Below, one piece after another: positions 21,805 through 44,784 of a stretch of DNA of 64,000 nt. Location: NCBI GenBank assembly GCA_035547835.1, contig DASZTW010000007.1, positions 62,001 to 126,000 on the forward strand, in the 5' to 3' direction. This stretch comes from Acidimicrobiales bacterium. Its GTDB lineage: Bacteria > Actinomycetota > Acidimicrobiia > Acidimicrobiales > Iamiaceae. Both the position numbers and the translations under genes were made by a program. The notes under the pieces are model-generated. The model saw only the letters and a program-made list of their open reading frames with translations. It did not search any database and was not told the DNA's origin. Positions within the stretch are counted from its first letter, which is position 1. Each line of letters opens with the position of its first letter.

Positions 21805-21923
21805 CGCTTGCTCCTCTCGACAGCCCCGATCCGGCGCAGGTACGCCGGTACGAGTTCCTCGTCGGAGCGAATCGACGCGTGTTGAGCCGTTGCGGGCGAT
21901 TTCGCGTGGATCGAATCCTCGTG

Positions 21924-21966
21924 CTGTGAGCAGTTGGCGACCTGCCAGGTGGTCAAGTGCTCACAG
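21924..21966 (-). terminator. Nested hairpin downstream of malQ
   Basis: Outer arms CTGTGAGCA (21924-21932) and TGCTCACAG (21958-21966) are perfect inverted repeats. A second inner inverted repeat ACCT-GCC-AGGT sits between them. The hairpin begins 8 bases after the malQ stop, as expected for a transcription terminator, though no T-run follows. It could alternatively be a regulatory site for tadE. Confidence 0.5.
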
Positions 21967-21973
21967 CTGGGTC

Positions 21974-41203: not shown

Positions 41204-41830
41204 GTGGTCGTCATCGGGCTCACCGGAGGCATCGGATCCGGCAAATCCACCCTGTCCACACGGCTTGCCGCGCGCGGCGCGGTCGTGATCGATGCCGACG
41301 CGATCACCAAGCAGCTCCAGCAGCCCGGCATGCCGGTGTTCGAGGCCATGGTCGAGCGGTTCGGCCCGGCGATCGTCGGCGGCGATGGACAGCTCGACCG
41401 CCAGGCGGTGGCCGACCTGGTGTTCAAGGACCCCCAGGCGCTGGCCGACCTGAACGCCATCGTGCACCCCGCGGTCGGTGTGGAGATCGCCGAGCGGCTG
41501 GCCGCCGAGACCGAGACCGACCACATCGTGATCCTCGACGTGCCGCTGCTGGTGGAGTCGGGGAGGGCTGACCAGGCTGCGACGATCGTGGTCGACGTCG
41601 ATCCCGAGATCGCCTTGCACCGCCTCGTGCAGCAGCGCGGGATGCGTCCCGACGATGCCCGGGCGCGCATGTCACAGCAGGCCAGCCGCGAGCAGCGCTT
41701 GGCGGCGGCCGACTTCGTCATCGACAACTCCGGCACTGTCGGTGACCTGGAGGCCCAGATCGAGGACCTCTGGCCGAAGCTGCTGGCGCTGACCACGGCC
41801 CCGGCCGAGCGGACCGACGAGGGCGAGTGA
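41204..41830 (+). CDS. coaE: Dephospho-CoA kinase
   Basis: This 208-residue P-loop kinase phosphorylates dephospho-CoA, the last step of CoA synthesis. The motifs are VVIGLTGGIGSGKSTLSTRLAARGAVVIDADAITKQL (Walker A), VFKDPQALADLNAIVHPAV and VILDVPLLVESG. The GTG at 41204 starts close to the glycine-rich loop as is usual. It overlaps the downstream SDR gene (GTGA). In Mycobacterium coaE directly follows rpsA; here ten kilobases of pilus genes are in between. Confidence 0.94.
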   Translation: MVVIGLTGGIGSGKSTLSTRLAARGAVVIDADAITKQLQQPGMPVFEAMVERFGPAIVGGDGQLDRQAVADLVFKDPQALADLNAIVHPAVGVEIAERLAAETETDHIVILDVPLLVESGRADQAATIVVDVDPEIALHRLVQQRGMRPDDARARMSQQASREQRLAAADFVIDNSGTVGDLEAQIEDLWPKLLALTTAPAERTDEGE

Positions 41831-42621
41831 CGACGATGCGGGTGTTGTTGACCGGCGCGGGGTCGGGGATGGGGCGCTGCATCGCGGGGCACTTGGCGAC
41901 GCGCGGTCACGAGGTCGTGGCCACCGCACGGCGTCCAGAGGTGCTCGACGACCTCGACGTGGCGGAGCGCCACGCGCTCGACGTGACCTCCGACGAGTCG
42001 GTCGCCCGCCTCGCCGCGCGGATCGGATCGGTCGACGTTCTGGTGAACAACGCCGGGATCAACCAGCGTGGGCCCGTGGAGCGGGTGCCCGTGGCCCGGT
42101 TCCGGGAGTTGTATGAGACCAACGTGCTCGGTGTCGTGCGGGTGGCGCAGGCGTTCGTGGCGGCCATGCGCGAGCGAGGCTCAGGCGTGATCGTGAACAT
42201 CTCGTCGGTGGCGGGCCGGGTCACCGAGCCGCTCGGCGGTGCGTACGCGGCATCGAAAGCCGCGCTGGAGGCCGTCTCTGAAGCCCTGTACTACGAGCTC
42301 GGCCACTTCGGCATTCGCGTGGTGATCATCGAGCCCGGGTTCATCGCGCCGGGGATGCAGAGCCAACCGCCGATCGGCGAGGAGGCGCCCTACGACGAGC
42401 TGCGGCGCCAGCTGTCGGGGGTCGACCAGGTGCTCACCGGCGGCGGACGCCCGGGGCCCGAGATCGTGGCCGACGCCGTGGCGGCAGCCATCGAAGACCC
42501 GTCCTGCCCGCTGCGGTGCCCGGTGGGCGCCGACGCCGAGATGGTCACCGGTGCCCGCAGTTCCCTCGACGACGCCGCCTTCGAGGCCGCCATGCGCGAG
42601 GTCCTCGACCTCACCTGGTAA
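41827..42621 (+). CDS. Short-chain dehydrogenase/reductase
   Basis: This 264-residue classical SDR has the cofactor motif TGAGSGMGRCIAGHLATRG, VDVLVNNAGIN, catalytic Ser in VNISSVAGR and the YAASK motif for catalysis. The Arg pair after the second strand (ARR) suggests NADP(H). The start is GTG at 41827, overlapping the coaE stop, or ATG at 41836. The substrate is unknown. Coupling with coaE is by position only. A long palindrome lies downstream, before uvrB. Confidence 0.9.
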   Translation: MTTMRVLLTGAGSGMGRCIAGHLATRGHEVVATARRPEVLDDLDVAERHALDVTSDESVARLAARIGSVDVLVNNAGINQRGPVERVPVARFRELYETNVLGVVRVAQAFVAAMRERGSGVIVNISSVAGRVTEPLGGAYAASKAALEAVSEALYYELGHFGIRVVIIEPGFIAPGMQSQPPIGEEAPYDELRRQLSGVDQVLTGGGRPGPEIVADAVAAAIEDPSCPLRCPVGADAEMVTGARSSLDDAAFEAAMREVLDLTW

Positions 42622-42663: not shown

Positions 42664-42723
42664 TCCCCGTTCTGGGCTGCTTCTTACGCGCTGGGACGCG
42701 TCAAAAGCAGCCCAGAACGGGGA
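42664..42723. repeat. 60-bp near-perfect palindrome between SDR and uvrB
   Basis: Two 27-bp arms (42664-42690 and 42697-42723) match at 25 of 27 positions, the outer 19 perfectly (starting TCCCCGTTCTGGGCTGCTT), around a 6-base loop CTGGGA. The right arm ends exactly before an in-frame GTG at 42724 and 30 bp before the preferred uvrB ATG. It could be a terminator, an mRNA hairpin in the uvrB leader or a miniature mobile element. Confidence 0.85.
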
Positions 42724-42753
42724 GTGTCACAGGCGATCCGTAGGCTGGGGGGC

Positions 42754-44784
<2,031 letters not shown>

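Follow-up and report, generated by a model that had tools for sequence, protein, structure and literature searches.

Dispersed palindromes in bacterial chromosomes are mostly explained by RAYT transposases. The available portions of two papers (PMC3116915, PMC3733652) describe REP/RAYT systems as short dispersed palindromes, mostly intergenic and near gene 3' ends, with a lone gene between copies and several repeat–gene pairs per genome. REPs tagged with CGTC are presented in the latter (PMC3733652) as having no dedicated transposase; what moves families of this kind is left open in the portion available, and no endonuclease partner is mentioned in it. I-Bth0305I is, according to the accessible part of a review (PMC3943268), an EDxHD homing enzyme that acts as a dimer at a target site nearly 60 bp long, and it is placed there among phage and group I intron enzymes. 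The accessible part of a further paper (PMC3710099) gives MTES_1575 as a Vsr-type REase. A link of DUF559, MTES_1575, AbiEi or EDxHD nucleases to dispersed palindromes was not found in open-licence papers; subscription or bioRxiv-only work could hold one.

The element described here resembles the REP or REPIN elements with their RAYTs (GTAG REPs, "REPtrons") in its dispersed palindromes near gene 3' ends, its one bracketed gene and its several pairs per genome. It differs from them in its enzyme, a Vsr-like EDxHD nuclease with an AbiEi-like N-terminus instead of a Y1 tyrosine transposase, and in its palindromes, which carry no GTAG tag. With the CGTC-tagged REPs it shares dispersed palindromes without a RAYT, whereas no CGTC tag was noted and a putative endonuclease partner is at hand. 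The predicted catalytic fold and the E-D-x-H-D residues are those of homing endonucleases such as I-Bth0305I; in contrast to the latter, the gene stands alone in the chromosome, it is fused to an AbiEi-like part, and its presumed target, which has many solo copies, lies on both sides of the gene. The Vsr repair endonuclease and the DUF559 and MTES_1575 REase families belong to the same nuclease superfamily, but, unlike Vsr, the protein is no mismatch-repair partner of a cytosine methyltransferase. An AbiEi-like domain is also found in AbiE toxin–antitoxin systems. The palindrome probably represents a dispersed selfish element, of which it is a non-autonomous copy; the partner of this element would be a gene for an AbiEi-like wHTH joined to a DUF559 (EDxHD/Vsr-like) nuclease.

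The window (the whole stretch of DNA analysed, 64 000 nucleotides) was taken from the source genome G000 (3.70 Mb, 22 contigs, 96.7% complete). The following features were used:

21922 to 21968, no strand: one copy of the second palindrome family of G000, GCTGTGAGCA...TGCTCACAGC (nuclease gene of that family at G000:C5:99945-100820).
41827 to 42621, plus strand: SDR-family oxidoreductase, upstream neighbour (45 bp from its stop codon to the core).
42664 to 42723, no strand: whole palindrome; the conserved family unit is the 54-bp core, 42667 to 42720 (covariance-model match at G000:C7:104666-104721, 77.7 bits).
42667 to 42679, no strand: left outer arm CCGTTCTGGGCTG (from the 27-copy alignment; the CGTTCTGG end is common to related families).
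42680 to 42685, no strand: left 6-nt linker CTTCTT (only partial pairing in most copies).
42686 to 42701, no strand: inner stem ACGCG / CGCGT with the 6-nt loop CTGGGA (loop TGGG or CCCA, depending on the copy).
42702 to 42707, no strand: right 6-nt linker CAAAAG (from the alignment of copies).
42708 to 42720, no strand: right outer arm CAGCCCAGAACGG (from the 27-copy alignment).
42754 to 44784, plus strand: uvrB, downstream neighbour, likely start ATG 42754 (gene reading and UvrB model match).

The inverted repeat (arms 42664-42690 and 42697-42723, 27 nt each, 93% complementary, 6-nt loop) has exactly the 27-bp arms with two mismatches that were claimed in the earlier note, and a GTG at 42724, in frame with uvrB, does follow immediately on the last base of its right arm (42723). 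Among the 13 short-range inverted repeats listed in the window, this one is the strongest; the fold z-score of the region was -3.9, with none of 200 shuffles equally stable. A tolerant search found one copy of this family in the window (chance expectation 0.00). The GTG is probably not the uvrB start, because, with translation from ATG 42754, the UvrB models (TIGR00631, E = 0) match the protein from its residue 3 onwards; about 30 bp therefore separate the end of the hairpin from the likely start downstream. That short distance is what speaks for a leader hairpin specific to uvrB and limiting its translation, as had been proposed, but the other 29 copies in the genome adjoin other genes and the likely start lies downstream, and this reading is hardly credible. 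With regard to uvrB, the insertion of the element between this gene and the SDR gene is most likely incidental. The long arms of the window hairpin are partly special to this copy: among the 27 copies first aligned, 24 have 0–3 of the six possible linker pairs and three have 4–5, the window copy having 4. It is one of three nearly perfect palindromes among the G000 copies, an outcome that template switching at a quasipalindrome would give. The orientation of the loop (TGGG or CCCA) and that of the linkers change independently from copy to copy within the genome.

A 14-base piece of the arm gave 18 exact matches in the 3.70-Mb genome, and a covariance model built from 27 copies located 30 distinct places, each matched on both strands. 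The genome search for further copies that had been proposed earlier thus found the element to be multi-copy. All 30 copies fitted a single 54-bp layout (13-bp arm, 6-nt linker, ACGCG, 6-nt loop, CGCGT, 6-nt linker, 13-bp arm) when up to six substitutions were permitted, the 27 aligned copies having been preselected for exact 10-bp arms. Within these 27, chosen by their exact arms, 29 of 56 columns are invariant, and the linkers are mostly unpaired. According to simple gene calls of our own, 11 copies lie in convergent, 14 in tandem and five in divergent context, and six extend 14–37 bp into the 3' end of a called gene. Convergent gaps are over-represented among the copies, because 11 of 30 fall there whereas such gaps make up 15% of intergenic sequence (in bp, measured on 800 kb of G000; p = 0.0035). 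The neighbouring genes of these copies have no evident common theme.

The strong fold, the preference for convergent gaps and the closeness to gene 3' ends would also suit bidirectional RNA hairpins, that is, terminators or stabilisers of mRNA ends kept for an RNA function. No U tract and no terminator-like site were found, however, and the terminator was rejected as a candidate on the latter ground; Rfam gave no match at the gathering score, only sub-threshold, chance-level microRNA hairpin matches. Moreover, it is sequence that is kept (the invariant columns above), not structure alone, and an RNA function leaves the nuclease brackets described below unexplained. It is accordingly a rather improbable explanation, although a secondary RNA effect can be compatible with the selfish element.

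Mobilisation by a RAYT was considered with the Y1_Tnp profile (PF01797, E ≤ 0.001), which gave no match in G000 and none in G004, G007, G027, G029, G035, G036, G041 and G047; a Y1 transposase was present in 10 of the 61 genomes searched. No common GTAG was seen at the foot of the hairpin, where the aligned copies have CCG/CGG. Behaviour of REP kind is evident in the dispersed, intergenic placement and in tandem doublets at approximately 70–73 bp spacing (G010 and the second family of G000), so that the copies might be REP/REPIN elements moved by a missed RAYT, with the nuclease as a passenger. The absence of Y1_Tnp, on which the RAYT/REP candidate was rejected for G000, and ends reading CGTTCTGG, not GTAG, make this very unlikely. 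In the relative G055, 27 Y1 transposase matches were obtained, many with stop codons, and CGTTCTG palindromes are lacking; in that genome the two system types do not go together.

Equally slight is the probability that the palindromes are MITEs of a DDE transposon with the nuclease gene as cargo. The conserved terminal 8–9 bp with genome-specific interiors speak for MITEs, but target-site duplications did not exceed those of shuffled flank pairs in 30 own and 61 other copies, and the DDE-type MITE was rejected on this account; complementarity of the flanks was likewise at the level predicted from composition, no higher. MITEs seldom have a fixed length and a palindromic interior, and one nuclease family recurs inside unrelated palindromes.

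One pair of copies in G000 (C12:148227 and C12:149301, on a contig other than that of the window) brackets a single gene, which encodes a 314-aa AbiEi-like plus DUF559 nuclease. In the genus g42, a palindrome pair in G401 encloses a gene; its product has matches to MTES_1575 REase and DUF559 and aligns with the G000 nuclease at 42% identity. Two other close pairs in G000 (C17:208171/208963, L072, and C17:142709/143923, L078) bracket single unrelated genes, and for this reason brackets alone are no proof of mobilisation. These two genes read like a putative acyltransferase and a putative secreted hydrolase, which would fit cargo capture or chance clustering.

The two nuclease proteins were searched by tblastn over 302 palindrome-bearing loci. 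Hits were obtained in seven genomes only, with palindromes directly beside each gene, on both sides in six of the seven (one flank is in view at L258). An independent test was needed because the 302 loci had been chosen for holding palindromes. A profile was therefore built from six such proteins; it matched 186 of the 397 genomes of the order at E ≤ 1e-15. For each gene, 350 bp to its left were aligned with 350 bp to its right, and a score of at least 43 was counted as positive. Among the 30 best profile loci minus the three query genes, 23 of 27 were positive; the upper tail of the shuffled-pair control for these 30 loci is inflated, because some of its pairs share a palindrome family. A phylum-wide sample gave a profile match in 88 of 296 genomes and a positive flank test at 15 of 27 new loci (control maximum 30), the rate being lower outside the class. 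Loci picked by protein alone thus have a flank pair in 38 of 54 cases, which is the unbiased figure. Another 40 nuclease genes, hand-picked mostly from element-rich genomes and including two repeats of earlier loci, gave 32 positives, including one simple repeat, with 42 as the highest control score. Taking all unique nuclease loci together, 71 of 95 have similar, mostly palindromic sequences of approximately 50–60 bp on both sides (one of the 71, L387, is a simple G-rich repeat), and 24 have no clear flank pair. Control genes of 750–1200 bp on 800 kb of contig C5 reached the score of 43 in one of 250 cases, and this one was the second nuclease gene of G000; the other genes gave 0 of 249. The flank segments are markedly self-complementary (median 38, against 18 for gene-body windows; p = 1e-14).

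Nuclease genes bracketed in this way occur in many genomes, and each time the palindrome has a sequence of its own. The flanking palindrome differs by gene (G074, G010, G124, G204 and G100 each have another), and known dispersed families enclose a nuclease gene in G010, G019, G041, G089, G115, G214, G228 and G317. G222 has two palindrome subfamilies, each enclosing one nuclease gene. Palindrome and protein co-diverge weakly (Mantel r = 0.12, p = 0.0025).

When palindromes were taken from the flanks of a nuclease gene and searched for elsewhere, they turned out to be dispersed in both genomes in which this was tried. In G418, a single-contig genome from another order of the same class, the flank palindrome was found in eight copies, two beside the gene and six elsewhere (reversed-pattern control 0). 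The second nuclease gene of G000 lies between tandem copies, three on one side and two on the other, of a palindrome different from that at uvrB, and this second family has 19 copies in 12 clusters on 800 kb (reversed control 0).

The covariance model of the uvrB-type family gave matches in 11 of 60 relatives, in several of which the element is multi-copy, and the relatives' elements have the same ends, CCGTTCTGG...CCAGAACGG, with genome-specific interiors. A pattern of these ends was present in 112 of the 397 genomes of the order, 54 of which have at least three matches; the highest counts were 101 (G380), 54 (G010), 53 (G089) and 48 (G222), and the reversed control never exceeded 2. This census undercounts, because only exact ends were taken (22 of the 30 places in G000 are recovered). 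A pattern specific to G000 gave no match in the contigs of the other genomes. Among the matches listed, the named records that bear elements are mostly Acidimicrobiales/Acidimicrobiia, and a number from other phyla are not palindromic. The nuclease (E ≤ 1e-15) occurs in 50 of the 54 genomes with at least three pattern matches, against 136 of the other 343 (Fisher p = 3e-14, kinship ignored). The four element-bearing genomes without it at this threshold are G236, G258, G261 and G304; the listed G261 hits are not palindromic.

One orthologous site in genus g42 was found in four states. G138 has 17 bp between the two genes and no element; G217 (L299) has a short palindrome of about 35 bp with the same ends, CCCGTTCTGGC...GCCAGAACGGGG, which suggests that conserved ends alone persist; G258 and G056 each have one full element between the same two genes; and G401 has element, gene and element, with outer flanks like those of G258. 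The G401 state would fit copying of the gene and one element into a pre-existing element, at a single site and in a single event, the direction of this change being read from the states of the other species. The earlier suggestion of a miniature mobile element or a REP-like repeat is well supported by 30 dispersed copies, a flanked cognate gene and orthologous sites that are either occupied or empty within a related genus. With no Y1 transposase found in G000, the element does not qualify as a REP of the RAYT kind.

The N-terminus of the nuclease is AbiEi-like (PF13338; PADLOC AbiEi models) and the C-terminus is DUF559/MTES_1575 (Pfam, PADLOC). In an alignment of 97 members, two of which are duplicate loci, E207 is kept in 95, D239 in 96, E250 in 95, H257 in 95 and D266 in 96. 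A structure model of modest quality (four sequences, pLDDT 70, pTM 0.51) was compared with known structures. Its residues 50–200 matched the AbiEi antitoxin 6y8q (Z 12.3, 2.9 Å, 135 residues), and its residues 207–310 matched both the homing endonuclease I-Bth0305I, 3r3p (Z 10.5, 3.6 Å, 92 residues) and Vsr, 1cw0 (Z 9.5, 3.0 Å, 98 residues); the top Foldseek match was I-Bth0305I, at a weak E of 0.003. The nuclease is accordingly predicted to resemble I-Bth0305I and Vsr, with the E-D-x-H-D residues in a Vsr-like fold. A symmetric site with a fixed length of 50–55 bp would suit the need of a dimer like that of I-Bth0305I.

AbiEi antitoxins bind inverted repeats. The palindromes might therefore be operators from which the AbiEi-like part regulates its own gene, the dispersed copies forming a regulon or decoys; the N-terminal AbiEi matches, the AbiEi fold of the model and the symmetric sites of fixed length are consistent with this. 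Operators would not account for copies on both sides of the gene, for the preference for convergent gene ends with only five of 30 copies in divergent, promoter-bearing gaps, for neighbour genes without an evident theme, or for site occupancy that varies between congeners. We regard regulation of this kind as unlikely, if less so than the other alternatives.

In the selfish-element explanation, the palindrome would be both recognition site and passenger of its cognate nuclease. Two nuclease subunits would bind the two halves of the symmetric site of approximately 50–55 bp through the N-terminal DNA-binding part, and the nuclease would cut or nick in or near the palindrome. In a manner similar to homing, repair from an element–gene–element copy would then place the gene together with another palindrome at the site of the cut, and solo palindromes would be targets or remnants. 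The system, for which we infer mobilisation, is best read as analogous to REP/RAYT but based on an unrelated nuclease.

A palindrome–nuclease selfish system seems not to have been described previously. The balance of evidence leans slightly towards a new class, in which free-standing EDxHD/Vsr-like endonucleases would home into and spread dispersed chromosomal palindromes, with one palindrome per enzyme lineage and several pairs per genome; such a class would be a convergent counterpart of REP/RAYT and may explain other palindrome families without an enzyme. An unrelated nuclease family, common in the phylum, is tied by position to dispersed palindromes, and a specific enzyme–substrate pair is now open to testing. 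The "unknown function" family DUF559 is given a possible job in the AbiEi-like plus DUF559 architecture, and nuclease flanks offer a rule by which palindromic repeat families can be sought in each genome.

Two minor observations concern the arrangement of copies in G000. Second-family copies on contig C5 are often tandem, with 73-bp spacing. In the uvrB-type family, single additional arms, which read CAGCCCAGAACGG or its reverse and are in some cases imperfect, are found approximately 5–30 bp beyond a full palindrome at L074, L075, L078, L085 and L097, and are perhaps remnants of tandem copies.
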